From Halovivax gelatinilyticus (GTDB taxonomy: Archaea > Halobacteriota > Halobacteria > Halobacteriales > Natrialbaceae): a stretch of DNA of 64,000 nt. A model generated the notes under the pieces. The model saw only the letters and a list, made by a program, of their open reading frames with translations. It did not search any database and was not told where the DNA came from. The stretch is from positions 2,555,992 through 2,619,991 of the forward strand of contig NZ_CP101322.1 in NCBI RefSeq assembly GCF_024300625.1, read 5' to 3'. A program made the position numbers and the translations under genes. Shown piece by piece: positions 4,979 through 38,332 of the stretch (positions are counted from its first letter, which is position 1; the number at the start of each line of letters is the position of its first letter).

Positions 4979-5010
4979 ACGTGATGGTACCGGTCCGAGG
5001 ATTGGTCGAG

Positions 5011-5757
5011 TTACAGGGTCGTCGCCGCCTCGAGGGCGATGTCGATCGCCCGCGAGACGTTGTGTTTCGCCTTCTCTGGTAACTCCTCGTCGTCGGTGTC
5101 GGTCCCTTTCTGCGTGCCCTCGACGAGGTTGCCGTCGACGGTGCAGATGGCGCCGGCGCGAAGCCCCTTTCGCCGGGCCAGCGTGAAGATAGCCGCCGCT
5201 TCCATCTCGACGGCGAGCAGTCCGGCCGCTTCCCACTTCTCGACGTACGCGTCGGTTTCAGCGTAGTAGGCGTCGTCGGTGGTGATCGGTCCGACGTGAA
5301 CCGTCGCGCCGGCGTCGTCGACGCGGTCGGCGTGAGCTTCGGCCGCCTCGACGAGCGCCGAGAGGACCCCGTACTCCGGAACGGCGGGGAGTTCGACGTC
5401 CTCGTAGCGCTTCGTCGTCCCCTCGTCTTTGGCCGCTCCGGTCGCGACGACCATGTCGCCGATCTCGAGTCCGCGCTGGAGCGCGCCGGTGGTCCCGACC
5501 CGGACGATAGTCTCGACGCCGACGGCGGCCAGTTCTTCGACGGCGATCGCGGCCGACGGCGATCCGATCCCCGTCGAGCAGATGGTCAGGTCTCGCCCCT
5601 CGTAGGTGGCGTTGACGACCTTGTACTCGCGGTTTTCGGCGATCGTCTCCGCGCGATCACAGTGGCCCGCGATCCGGTCGACGCGACCGGGGTCGCCGGG
5701 AACGAGCGCGAGGTCGTGGACGTCCCCCTCGTCGACGAGCAGGTGTGGTTGCGTCAT
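5011..5757 (-). CDS. udp: uridine phosphorylase-type nucleoside phosphorylase
   Basis: This 248-residue protein belongs to the PNP/UDP hexameric nucleoside phosphorylases, which cleave a nucleoside with phosphate to give ribose 1-phosphate and free base. Visible motifs are the N-terminal phosphate loop (LVPGDPGRVDR), STGIGSPSAAIA, RVGTTGAL, and the ribose/base segment LLAVEMEAAAIFTLA. Length is normal for the family. It is the last gene of a same-strand run with a HalOD1 protein and a PfkB-family kinase, a combination that would pass ribose 1-phosphate to a kinase. Base specificity (uridine or guanosine) is not certain from sequence alone. Confidence 0.9.
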   Translation of the reverse strand: MTQPHLLVDEGDVHDLALVPGDPGRVDRIAGHCDRAETIAENREYKVVNATYEGRDLTICSTGIGSPSAAIAVEELAAVGVETIVRVGTTGALQRGLEIGDMVVATGAAKDEGTTKRYEDVELPAVPEYGVLSALVEAAEAHADRVDDAGATVHVGPITTDDAYYAETDAYVEKWEAAGLLAVEMEAAAIFTLARRKGLRAGAICTVDGNLVEGTQKGTDTDDEELPEKAKHNVSRAIDIALEAATTL

Positions 5758-32949: not shown

Positions 32950-33573
32950 TTACTCTCCGGAGCCGCGTTCGACGAAGTCGGCCACGTCTTCGGCGACGTT
33001 TCGTCCCTGGCCGACGAAGAAGTGATCGGCCGACCACTCGACGACTTCGGCGCCGCGTTCGCGTCCCGCCTCGACGACCGGTTCCCAGTCGGCCACCTCG
33101 TCGCGCGTGCCGTAGATGACCTGCAACCGAGTTCGATCGTCGAGGTCGTCGACGGCGCGGGGAACCTCGAGGTCGGGTCCGAGGCTGGCCGTCGGGGCGA
33201 GCGCCGAGACGCACTCGACGTCGGTCTCGACGGAGGCGGCCGCGAGAATCGCCTCGGAACCTCCGAAACTGAATCCGAACAGCCCGACGGTGTCGACGCG
33301 TTCGTCGGCCCAGCGAACCGCGTTTCTGACGTCTTCACATTCACCGTAGCCGTCGTCCCAGGTCCCGTAGTCGATCCGTAGACAGCCGATTTCGCGATCC
33401 GCGAGCGCGTCGCCAACCGCCCGTAGCCTGGTGTCGGTCCGTGACCCACCTTCCGGGGGATACGGCGGGCAGGCCACGACGAGCGCGTCCGGATCGTCGG
33501 GTCCGTCGACGGTGGCGCGGACGTCCCGCGCCCCCGGGATGAGTACGTCTTCACCGCCTCGAACGTCGGTCAT
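32950..33573 (-). CDS. alpha/beta hydrolase (dienelactone hydrolase-like)
   Basis: This 207-residue serine hydrolase has the nucleophile elbow GFSFGGSEAILA and a catalytic His near the end (WSADHFFVGQGRNVAED); the acid is probably in VIYGTRDEVADW. It resembles small esterases of the dienelactone hydrolase clan. A four-residue longer start at 33582 is possible, but the ATG at 33571-33573 (MTDVRGGEDV) is more likely. It converges on DUF5787 with 39 bases between stops. Substrate unknown. Confidence 0.8.
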   Translation of the reverse strand: MTDVRGGEDVLIPGARDVRATVDGPDDPDALVVACPPYPPEGGSRTDTRLRAVGDALADREIGCLRIDYGTWDDGYGECEDVRNAVRWADERVDTVGLFGFSFGGSEAILAAASVETDVECVSALAPTASLGPDLEVPRAVDDLDDRTRLQVIYGTRDEVADWEPVVEAGRERGAEVVEWSADHFFVGQGRNVAEDVADFVERGSGE

Positions 33574-33744
33574 ACCTCTCACTCGTCCGCTCGCTCTATT
33601 AGGAACGGGGGTTCGGCGACGCCATCCGGCCGGCCCTCTCGGATCGGCGTCCGGTTGTGGCGCTCGTCCTCACTCCCTCGAACGCGGATTCGTCCCATCA
33701 GCTCATCGGTGTCGACCAAGCTTCCCGGCCCAACGTGTGTGATG

Positions 33745-34756: not shown

Positions 34757-35251
34757 TTACGTCGGCGCCCCGAGCACGGCAATTTCGTAGCGATCCAGAT
34801 CTTGCGGGTTCTCTAGCAGGACGACGGTGAACGACCAGGCGCCGTCGCCCGCCAGGTCACCCGTTCGGGACGCGTAACGGCCCAGTTGCGTGCCGTCGGC
34901 GTCGAACGCTCGAACGCGAACCTCGACGAGTTCGATCCGATCGCTGCCCTCGTTGGCGACGATTCCCTGGACGGTCGCGCCCTCGTAGCCGTCTTCCAGG
35001 ACGAATTCGTGAGTGACGATCGAGAGGTCGCCGAGCGGCGAGACGCCCTCGCGCACGTCGGTATCGGCGATAGCTTCGGCGGCAGTCAGCTCGTCTGAGG
35101 TCCGAGGATCGGCGTCGAGATCGGGTATCTCACCGGATTCGTACGTAACTGACCGCCCGTCGAGACAGCCCGCCAGGACGAGCGGGAGGCTTCCGATCGC
35201 CGCGAGCAATCCTCGCCTCGATCGGTCTCCGGGTGCGTCCGCGTTCGACAT
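34757..35251 (-). CDS. Tat-exported lipoprotein with FxLYD-type domain
   Basis: This 164-residue protein has a twin-arginine signal and lipobox: SRRGLLAAIGSLPLVLAGC, cleaved before Cys for lipid attachment on the outer face. The mature part holds an immunoglobulin-like FxLYD domain (about 80-160: GDLSIVTHEFVLEDG, VQGIVANEGSDRIELVEVRVRAFD, GDGAWSFTVVLLE). Role unknown. The ATG at 35249-35251 (MSNADAPGD) is selected because it places the signal correctly. It lies 122 bases from the divergent membrane protein gene. Confidence 0.85.
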   Translation of the reverse strand: MSNADAPGDRSRRGLLAAIGSLPLVLAGCLDGRSVTYESGEIPDLDADPRTSDELTAAEAIADTDVREGVSPLGDLSIVTHEFVLEDGYEGATVQGIVANEGSDRIELVEVRVRAFDADGTQLGRYASRTGDLAGDGAWSFTVVLLENPQDLDRYEIAVLGAPT

Positions 35252-35372: not shown

Positions 35373-36470
35373 ATGGCCGACGACTCGGATTTCGACGAGA
35401 ACGTCGATCCCCTGGAGTCCTACGGGGCGAGCCTCGACGAACACGAGGGACCGGTCGGCCGGTTTCGCGAGTGGGTGTTACTCGACGGTGCGCGGCTGTA
35501 CGTCGCGACGCTGCTCACCGTCGTCGTGTTCGTCGGATTGCTCGTTCTCGAGTCGGTCGGGGCCATCTCGTTCACCAACGACGACTCGATCACGAGGATG
35601 GCCGGGGGAATGATCGCGGGCACGTTCTCGCTGGTCACGCTCGTCGTCTCGATCAACCAGCTCATCCTCTCGCGGGAGTTCACCGCCGCCGGTGAGGCCG
35701 AGTCGCAACTGGATGGCGTCGAATCGTTCCGAGAGAACATCGCCGACCTCTCGGGCGTTCCGGCCGCACCGGCCTCGCCGGCCCGCCTGCTCGAACTTCT
35801 CGCGGAGACGATAGACGGCCGCGCACACGACCTGGGCGACGCTGTCGCTGATCACGACGAGTCCGTACGGACACCGGTTCGACGCTACGCCGCCGGCGTC
35901 TCAGAGAGCGCGGATCAGGTCGACGCCCGTCTCGAGGAGACGGCGTTCGGGACGTTCGAGACGCTCTCGGTCGCCGTAACGTTCGACGACGGCTGGTATC
36001 GGTACGCCGGTCTCTACCTCCAGCGCGAACACGCAGACGCCCTCTCAGAGACCGCGGGGAACTCGCTCGACGACGTGCTGTTCGGGCTCCGCCTGTTCGC
36101 GATCGCCCAGGAGCACTTCAAGACGACGTACCTCCAGCGAGAGCTGACCCGATTCTCCCAGCTGACGATCGTCACCGGCGTCCCGGCGATCCTCTCGGCG
36201 ATGCTCATCGGATTTCTCTACGCCGACCTCACCGGACCGACGGTCACGATCGCGGCGCTTCCCGTCGTCGTGAGCGCGCTGGTCGCGGTCGTCATCTCAC
36301 CGCTCGCGTTACTGGTCGCGTACATTCTCCGGACGACGACCGTCACTCGCCGGACCGCTTCGACCGGGCCGATGCTGCCACAGAAACACCCCGAGGAGGG
36401 TCCGTTCGCCGTTACGTCTCGCAGCGACGAGGGGTCATCGTCTCGATCGTCGCTCCCAGACGACGAGTGA
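35373..36470 (+). CDS. conserved membrane protein, paralogue A of a flanking pair
   Basis: This 365-residue protein has two N-terminal helices (about 43-63 and 72-93), a long soluble middle rich in Asp/Glu/Ala (about 100-240), and two C-terminal helices (about 267-288 and 293-322). Conserved words shared with the 37307 gene are VSINQLILSREF versus VTINQLVLSQEL, and QEHFKTTYLQRELTRFSQ versus REHFKTLYFQWELIKLSR. The family is haloarchaeal; no enzyme motif is seen. It is followed by an HPP protein and then its paralogue, all on one strand with spacings of about 130 bases. Confidence 0.7.
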   Translation: MADDSDFDENVDPLESYGASLDEHEGPVGRFREWVLLDGARLYVATLLTVVVFVGLLVLESVGAISFTNDDSITRMAGGMIAGTFSLVTLVVSINQLILSREFTAAGEAESQLDGVESFRENIADLSGVPAAPASPARLLELLAETIDGRAHDLGDAVADHDESVRTPVRRYAAGVSESADQVDARLEETAFGTFETLSVAVTFDDGWYRYAGLYLQREHADALSETAGNSLDDVLFGLRLFAIAQEHFKTTYLQRELTRFSQLTIVTGVPAILSAMLIGFLYADLTGPTVTIAALPVVVSALVAVVISPLALLVAYILRTTTVTRRTASTGPMLPQKHPEEGPFAVTSRSDEGSSSRSSLPDDE

Positions 36471-36601
36471 TCGATCTGACTCTCCCGTCGTGTGAGTCTC
36501 GAAACTGACGGGCGAGTAACTCGTGGTTACGTCTCTGCGTACGCGACGGTCGGATTCGACGGCCCGGCGTTTTTCCCGCAGACGCCCGAACGATAGACAC
36601 T

Positions 36602-37168
36602 ATGGGACTGCTGGAGAAGCTGAGCGTCACCGCCGACGAGACGATGGATCTCCGGGACGACCTGAGCGCGGGGATCAACGTAACGCTTCACTTCGTCTTT
36701 CTCGGCGGACTCGCCTGGGGCTCCGGACAGCCGTTTCTCTTTCCTAGCCTTGGTCCCTCCGCCTACCTCCTCGCGACCGGAGATAACCCGCGAGCGGAGG
36801 GTGCGTACCACGTCATCGGCGGACACGCGGTCGCGGCGATCGCCGGTCTCCTCGCGTACGTCGTTATCGCGGACGGACTGGTCGTCGTCGACGCGTTCGA
36901 AGCCGGTGAGCGGTTCTCCACGGATGTCGGCCGGCTGGTCCTGAGCGGGATCGTCGCGATGATACTGACGACGATCGGGATGCTGTGGTCGAACACGAAT
37001 CACCCGGCCGCCTGCGCGACGACGCTCATCGTCGCGCTCGGGTTGATGTCGACGGTCGTCGAGATCGCCGTCATCGTCGTCGCGGTCGCGCTGCTCGTCG
37101 GTTTCCACGCCGTCGTCGTCGAGCGCTTTCAGGACCTCTACGGCGTGGAACCAGAGGACCCCCGTTGA
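36602..37168 (+). CDS. HPP family membrane protein
   Basis: This 188-residue integral membrane protein has four or five helices and the HPP motif region. Visible are FLFPSLGPSAYLLATGDNP, YHVIGGHAVAAIAGL, and NHPAACATTLIVALGLM, where the family's conserved Pro and His sit (HPP is named after such a motif; here it reads HPA). Some HPP proteins carry nitrite or act in the chloroplast envelope; the role here is unknown. It is embedded between two paralogous membrane proteins. Confidence 0.85.
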   Translation: MGLLEKLSVTADETMDLRDDLSAGINVTLHFVFLGGLAWGSGQPFLFPSLGPSAYLLATGDNPRAEGAYHVIGGHAVAAIAGLLAYVVIADGLVVVDAFEAGERFSTDVGRLVLSGIVAMILTTIGMLWSNTNHPAACATTLIVALGLMSTVVEIAVIVVAVALLVGFHAVVVERFQDLYGVEPEDPR

Positions 37169-37306
37169 CGTGCGGATTACGCGGGGAACGCGGGCCCGGT
37201 AGCCGATCCGTACGACGGTGCGACCGCGCCGGGGGTCGCCTGGCGGTCGAATAAACGTCGACTTCCGGGCCGGGTATTTTACCGACGGTCGTGGTGTGCG
37301 TACGAA

Positions 37307-38332
37307 ATGGCCGTCACTGGATCTGATTCGGGAAACGAGTCGGCCGACCGACTCGGTGGCCCCAGGCTGTTCGTCCTGCTCAACCTGAACCGGTGGCTCC
37401 TGACGGGGATCATCCTCGCTGCGGTGTTCGTCGTCCTGGTCTCGATGAGCCGTGTAGGCCTTTCGCCGTTACGCGAGATCGTCGAGGCTCAGGACGGGCT
37501 CGAATTTCTCTTTTCGGCGTTCATCGGCGCGATCATCACCGGCACGTCGATCGTCGTGACGATCAATCAGCTCGTCCTCTCACAGGAACTCGGCGCGGTC
37601 GGGGATCAGCGCGAGCGGATGCAGGATTCGATCGGGTTCAGACGTGATCTCGAATCGGAGCTCGACGAGGACGCGAGTCCGCCAGAACCCGCCGCTTTCC
37701 TCTACGAACTGATCGACGGAATCGAGGCACGGGCGTCCGAACTCGAATCGACGATGGATGACGAGCGTGAAGCGGAACTCCGCGAGGCGGTATCCGACTA
37801 CGTCGACGACCTCACGGCGAACGCACAGTCGGTTAAAGAAGACCTGGAAGACGCTCAGTTCGGGACGTTCGCCGTTATCTGGGCCGCGCTCAACTTCAAC
37901 TACTCGCGGAAGATCTACGACGCGCGTAAGATCAAGGCCGATCACGAGGGAGACCTATCCGAGGAAGCCGCGGAGGCGCTCGAGGGGACGATCGAGGTGC
38001 TGAAATTCTTCGGTCCGGCGCGCGAGCACTTCAAAACGCTCTACTTCCAGTGGGAACTCATCAAGCTCTCGCGAGCCCTCCTGTACATCGCGGTTCCGGC
38101 CCTCACCGTCATGGCCGTGATGATCATGTACGTCGACGCGCAAGCGCTTCCGGGATCGACGCTCGGCGTCGACAACCTCGTCTGGCTGACGAGTGCGGGC
38201 TTCGTCGTCGGCATCGCCCCATTCGTCGTCTTCATCTCGTTCATCCTGCGGATCGCGAGCGTGGCGAAGCGGACGCTCGCGATGGGCCCGTTCATCCTGA
38301 GAGAATCGGAGCGCGACGAGGATCTCGGTTGA
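37307..38332 (+). CDS. conserved membrane protein, paralogue B of a flanking pair
   Basis: This 341-residue protein has the same layout as the 35373 protein: two N-terminal helices (about 31-50 and 66-88), a soluble helical middle (about 95-235) and two C-terminal helices (about 258-277 and 288-317). It keeps VTINQLVLSQEL and REHFKTLYFQWEL. It is not a recent copy, since identity is limited outside these words. The C-terminus reads LAMGPFILRESERDEDLG. Function unknown; with its paralogue it brackets the HPP gene. Confidence 0.7.
   Translation: MAVTGSDSGNESADRLGGPRLFVLLNLNRWLLTGIILAAVFVVLVSMSRVGLSPLREIVEAQDGLEFLFSAFIGAIITGTSIVVTINQLVLSQELGAVGDQRERMQDSIGFRRDLESELDEDASPPEPAAFLYELIDGIEARASELESTMDDEREAELREAVSDYVDDLTANAQSVKEDLEDAQFGTFAVIWAALNFNYSRKIYDARKIKADHEGDLSEEAAEALEGTIEVLKFFGPAREHFKTLYFQWELIKLSRALLYIAVPALTVMAVMIMYVDAQALPGSTLGVDNLVWLTSAGFVVGIAPFVVFISFILRIASVAKRTLAMGPFILRESERDEDLG

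Follow-up and report, generated by a model that had tools for sequence, protein, structure and literature searches.

The window analysed here, a stretch of 64,000 nucleotides from the 3.70 Mb genome of Halovivax gelatinilyticus (contig NZ_CP101322.1, positions 2,555,992 to 2,619,991), carries a gene for a PspA/IM30 homologue and, a short distance on, a gene for an HPP membrane protein that is flanked by two paralogues, here called P1 and P3, with FAM as the working label of their family (Table 1). The PF04012 match spans residues 2-229 of PspA, which is most of the protein, and a hydrolase-like gene lies divergent from pspA, which itself ends 796 bp upstream of P1. A gene for an FxLYD-domain lipoprotein is divergent from P1 and likely starts at 35248, ahead of what appears to be a twin-arginine/lipobox-like N-terminus, whilst downstream of P3 a small gene and an enolase-superfamily gene are found on the minus strand. 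The first-pass annotation had read the flanking genes as paralogues, and BLASTP bears this out with an alignment of 329 residues at 30% identity and 49% positives (E 5e-42); the middle gene is indeed an HPP gene, with PF04982 above its cut-off, and the similar spacing claimed for its two sides is found in gaps of 131 bp after P1 and 138 bp before P3. A T-rich stretch begins 31-32 nt ahead of the ATG in pspA, P1, HPP and P3 alike, and these stretches seem to resemble leaderless haloarchaeal promoters. With such a promoter-like stretch for each gene separate transcription is suggested, and a single operon is unsupported.

Table 1. Features of the window around P1, HPP and P3, in window coordinates.
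Feature	Position	Strand	Basis or predicted character
Hydrolase-like gene	32950..33582	-	weak S15/hydrolase Pfam matches below cut-off; alpha/beta-hydrolase-like
pspA, PspA/IM30 homologue, 266 aa	33776..34576	+	PF04012, 99.7 bits against a cut-off of 33.9
FxLYD-domain lipoprotein	~34757..35248	-	NF038353, 69.7 bits
P1, FAM paralogue, 365 aa	35373..36470	+	predicted 2TM, cytoplasmic helical bundle, 2TM, by homology to P3
Word SINQLILS, P1	35649..35672	+	predicted cytoplasmic end of TM2
Word EHFKTTYLQREL, P1	36111..36146	+	predicted cytoplasmic start of TM3
HPP membrane protein, 188 aa	36602..37168	+	PF04982, 49.8 bits against a cut-off of 27.2
P3, FAM paralogue, 341 aa	37307..38332	+	predicted 2TM, cytoplasmic four-helix bundle, 2TM, by AF2 with charge and hydropathy
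Word TINQLVLS, P3	37559..37582	+	predicted cytoplasmic end of TM2
Word EHFKTLYFQWEL, P3	38024..38059	+	predicted cytoplasmic start of TM3

The two pairs of words that had been noticed as common to P1 and P3 are present and rank with the best-conserved columns of the family. In an alignment of 45 FAM sequences, numbered on P3, the conserved columns include Q88, L89, L91 and S92 of the first word and F242, K243, T244, Y246, E250 and L251 of the second, so that both words are part of the FAM signature. Databases offer little to place the family. Neither P1 nor P3 matches a family in Pfam or NCBIfam, and Pfam run over the 45 members at E<=0.1 returns scattered weak matches, the commonest being YtxH (7/45, best E 5.7e-05). 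PHROGs gives no usable match (best E 0.0027 across 47 residues), a sequence search of the PDB yields nothing usable for the paralogues, and PADLOC has no match for them. A phage origin was rejected with zero matches in 50,697 phage records, and a defence role was set aside on the PADLOC result. No description of the family was found in the Psp and HPP texts covered, and prior publication is still possible; the best reading is that P1 and P3 belong to an undescribed, mainly haloarchaeal family of membrane proteins.

The plan of two transmembrane helices, a soluble part and two further transmembrane helices, which had also been proposed, agrees with an AF2 model of P3 built from the 45 sequences (pLDDT 83.0, pTM 0.76) and with charge and hydropathy across the 45 relatives. 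In the model helices 29-49 and 64-94 lie in the membrane and are followed by a helical bundle, and helices 235-275 and 290-326 run back into the membrane. The N- and C-terminal segments of the 45 relatives are basic, with 2.6 and 2.8 K/R against 0.9 and 0.1 D/E, whereas the two short loops are acidic, which argues that both ends and the bundle, predicted at about 150 residues, are cytoplasmic. The signature words would then sit at the two junctions of bundle and membrane, at the end of TM2 and the start of TM3. Foldseek with the P3 model finds no match at E<=1e-3, and the best VIA match (Z 13.3) is a small designed protein aligned to the bundle. The modelled bundle seems to resemble ordinary four-helix bundles, and no known fold is claimed for P3 as a whole; a likeness to TTYH2 (VIA Z 9-12) comes with an rmsd of about 12 Å or more and was read as a common bundle shape only. 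For HPP the AF2 model has a pLDDT of 84.8, Foldseek gives nothing below E 3, and aquaporin rows (VIA Z 3-4, best overall Z 4.9) were set aside.

Relatives of FAM are found in 133 of 145 Halobacteria genomes, whether P1 or P3 is the query, with up to 11 copies in one genome. In a sample of the phylum 45 of 294 genomes match, 44 of them in the order of the window and one (G162) outside it. A named genome collection holds 346 stretches that encode FAM relatives, and the best 80 of these carry names of halophilic archaea with three exceptions, of which two are labelled Nanohaloarchaea and the third just Euryarchaeota; a spread beyond Halobacteria is possible on the taxonomy of these best 80 of 346. 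Relatives of P3 also occur on 68 plasmid records, and among the 25 listed 24 are annotated as 'hypothetical protein' and one is unannotated. Within five plasmid FAM regions, a DUF4177 gene is directly upstream in three and overlaps the FAM start by 4 bases, and a DUF2270 gene is upstream in two (L302, L303, L304 and L305 being among the regions with one or both), an operon-like setting; DUF2270 occurs in 103 of the 145 genomes. This third setting, on plasmids, speaks for FAM as an adaptor or sensor of general use in the membrane and not as part of one machine.

The broadest described partner of FAM is PspA, which has a match, mostly a single one, in 141 of the 145 haloarchaeal genomes. When one genome per genus is counted, 37 of 56 genera have FAM no more than 5 kb from pspA against 0.55 expected, an expectation that, like the one for HPP below, is a simple estimate from copy number and genome size and not a permutation. 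The proportion is 37/53 if only genera whose sampled genome has any FAM are counted; in 16 of the 56 genera FAM is found only away from pspA, and in three it is absent from the sampled genome. The survey covers 56 of 58 genera, g26 being left out for lack of a listed pspA coordinate and g32 for lack of a PspA match, and each genus is represented by its lowest-numbered genome, except for g22, where G030 was counted; adding G014 as a second g22 locus gives 37/57, both g22 loci being without FAM. At 45 of the 56 survey loci the stretch is centred on pspA, and at the other 11 (L033, L035, L037, L041, L043-L047, L053 and L142) it is centred on HPP, with uneven pspA flanks. The adjacency is seen in eight of nine families (f1 16/16, f2 2/4, f3 4/9, f4 9/18, f6 1/2, f7 2/2, f8 2/2, f9 1/1, f10 0/2). 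FAM is mostly on the same strand as pspA and downstream of it, often by 70-330 bp, with some convergent cases (g29, 143 bp), and since both tandem and convergent layouts are found the two genes are not frozen in a single order.

Other genes share this position with FAM, and the pspA block is conserved as a whole. The hydrolase is near pspA in 42 of 56 genera by tblastn (31/56 by clustering), and the idea that FAM is the most widespread neighbour of pspA was dropped on this recount; the hydrolase is possibly part of the same module as pspA and FAM. By clustering, the two members of the minus-strand pair that follows P3 are near pspA in 14 and 15 of the 56 genera, and the FxLYD lipoprotein cluster is near it in 10 of 56. 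HPP is near pspA in 12 of the 56 genera (10 by clustering), as compared with 37 for FAM, and always together with FAM: 12 of 37 genera with FAM there against 0 of 19 without, for which Fisher's test, with kinship ignored, gives p 0.005. A set of 109 loci has PspA in 64 and HPP in 43, although it was chosen for FAM and HPP, hence the genus survey is preferred. No HPP is nearby at 14 FAM loci picked away from pspA (L288-L301) either.

Whether the arrangement of FAM and HPP is retained, as the first-pass annotation had held, or is accidental can be judged from 119 HPP loci, taken together with 4.5 kb of flanking sequence on either side as far as the contig reached. FAM is within this distance at 29 of them against about 1 expected by the simple estimate, and retention is supported. 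The association depends on which HPP gene is considered, with FAM beside 15 of the 16 HPP rows most like that of the window, 8 of the 92 in the middle and 6 of the 11 most remote, one of these six (L147) being a FAM fragment only with no called HPP; three of the remote rows with FAM are convergent with it at 60-74 bp. The place of the HPP gene at FAM loci varies: it may stand between the paralogues, upstream in divergent orientation, in convergent orientation or elsewhere, and the paralogue pair is often kept without HPP. In a tree built from 73 FAM proteins the starred branches require no fewer than 7 changes for an HPP-only label, 11 for PspA plus HPP and 14 for PspA only, counts which overstate independent events as one cluster can give several rows. 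From these forced changes it appears that HPP became, or ceased to be, a neighbour on several occasions. The adjacency proposed in the first-pass annotation is therefore recurrent and well above chance, and that part of its two-subunit idea stands; a general plan with HPP in the centre is unsupported, as FAM is missing from the 4.5 kb flanks of 90 of the 119 HPP loci and HPP is near just 24 of the best 80 FAM loci. The link between FAM and HPP is real, but limited to certain lineages and not the general setting of FAM. At one HPP locus (L141 in G023, 5010-5261) a short FAM remnant was observed beside HPP, with an intact FAM about 2 kb further.

Within the Halovivax genome itself there is a single PspA match at E<=1e-10, and the four FAM genes found all adjoin its two found HPP genes. 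The second cluster (G000:C1:1490127-1492821, L074) pairs two FAM genes with the second of the two HPP genes found; this HPP gene and the nearer FAM converge, and the farther FAM is a long, divergent branch in the tree. Two of the three congeners (G071 and G101) keep the order P1-HPP-P3 with pspA far elsewhere in the genome, and in the third (G043) pspA is 1.7 kb from P1. In G023, G039 and G127 FAM is near HPP and no PspA match was found among the first-look candidates scored. Two versions of FAM, P1 and P3, are carried by this genome and by many of its family. It was also observed that P3 shares 78% identity with a relative from a different genus (G064) and only 55-57% with the copies in G043, G071 and G101, whilst the HPP of the window is 75-78% identical to that of the congeners; a replacement or transfer of P3 is possible from these identities.

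It might be assumed that FAM and HPP form one membrane complex, in which FAM regulates the HPP permease and PspA is a mere neighbour. The pairing of all four FAM genes with both HPP genes in the Halovivax genome would fit this, as would the P1-HPP-P3 order without pspA alongside in G071 and G101, the three genomes in which FAM adjoins HPP and PspA was not found, and the high frequency of FAM beside the HPP genes at either end of the similarity range. It is somewhat unlikely all the same, as FAM accompanies so few of the intermediate HPP rows (8/92), HPP is near fewer than a third of the best FAM loci (24/80) and it lies between paralogues in some lineages only. Another explanation is that the neighbourhood is an inherited haloarchaeal gene order with parts that are functionally unlinked, and the wide retention of other pspA neighbours (the hydrolase in 42/56 genera, the minus-strand pair in 14 and 15) and the promoter-like stretch in front of each window gene are what would be expected from it. 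Since conservation beside pspA is no weaker for the hydrolase than for FAM, general gene order may indeed explain some of the FAM signal. Against it, FAM stands beside pspA both in tandem and convergently, and with different genes intervening, and HPP genes of different similarity groups adjoin FAM; as a full account, inherited order is unlikely.

A different function altogether is suggested by the topology. Bestrophins have a pair of transmembrane helices, cytosolic helices and a further transmembrane pair, the same order as in FAM, which could then be a channel or transporter of this plan that opens under membrane stress. BEST1 chains do appear in the weak Foldseek rows, at ranks 4 and 47 (E 0.32 and 0.75), yet there is no Foldseek match at E<=1e-3, no bestrophin model in Pfam for P1 or P3 at E<=1 and none among 25 of the 26 families listed for the 45 members at E<=0.1. 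The best matches of the bundle are ordinary four-helix bundles, which leaves a bestrophin-type channel or transporter very unlikely; the 50 VIA matches listed include no bestrophin.

The reading preferred here, to which a probability of about 0.4 is given, is that haloarchaea have an envelope-stress module of the PspA type in which FAM serves as membrane anchor or sensor, and that an HPP permease has joined this module repeatedly. PspA works on the cytoplasmic side of the membrane. The predicted cytoplasmic bundle, the link with pspA and the duplication into P1 and P3 are together in keeping with a sensor or anchor in the membrane by which PspA would be recruited or tuned, HPP being an added permease, and it is from the family, its topology model and its recurrent pspA and HPP neighbourhoods that we infer physical contact between FAM and PspA, signalling or sensing, and a role for HPP. 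Under membrane stress FAM would hold or recruit PspA at its cytoplasmic face, and the signal would pass via the joint that the conserved words form where TM2 ends and TM3 starts. The HPP-type permease, added in several lineages, may relieve or report an ion or anion imbalance of the same stress. With up to 11 copies of FAM in a genome, and the plasmid settings with DUF4177 and DUF2270, PspA would not be the only partner of FAM. The genera in which FAM is found only away from pspA, the two congeners with P1-HPP-P3 far from pspA and the three genomes with FAM near HPP and no PspA match likewise weigh against the preferred reading. A further-reaching proposal, that haloarchaea have a Psp machine of their own in which a four-TM FAM holds PspA and, independently in several lineages, gates an HPP anion permease, is quite unlikely; if true, membrane damage would be sensed, patched and ion-balanced by one module.

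The HPP family includes nitrite transporters such as AtNITR2;1 (PMC4137279), with which the HPP of the window shares the HPP transmembrane domain, and it is a putative transporter by this family membership. The scanned neighbours in the window show no nitrogen-metabolism family (Pfam, NCBIfam), and the FAM context offers a functional setting for archaeal HPP proteins. Archaeal Psp networks are described as largely unknown (PMC9239133), with the same source reporting that a PspA homologue in Haloferax volcanii rises under salinity stress. It also describes Hvo2637 of this species, a membrane protein encoded downstream of pspA, for which bPH_4 and EphA2_TM signals are reported (PMC9239133). As a haloarchaeal membrane protein linked to pspA Hvo2637 is like FAM; bPH_4 and EphA2_TM are absent from the Pfam families listed for FAM, a comparison made with the published description of Hvo2637 only.

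Psp systems are described as having lineage-specific membrane partners, for example PspB/PspC or LiaI-LiaF-TM (PMC11237479; PMC9239133). In contrast to these known partners P1 and P3 match no PspB, PspC or LiaI-LiaF-TM model in Pfam or NCBIfam at E<=1, and none is among 25 of the 26 families listed for the 45 FAM members at E<=0.1. FAM also differs in its predicted cytoplasmic bundle of some 150 residues, and no PspF- or LiaRS-type regulator was recognised by Pfam among the ten window proteins scanned. What FAM loci do have in common with the Psp systems described is that a PspA/IM30 gene adjoins genes encoding integral membrane proteins (PMC11237479; PMC9239133), an adjacency that in haloarchaea extends across lineages, in 37 of the 56 genera and not in the other 19. 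As a family present in 133 of 145 genomes and often found beside pspA, FAM is thus a direct and testable candidate for the membrane partner of archaeal PspA.
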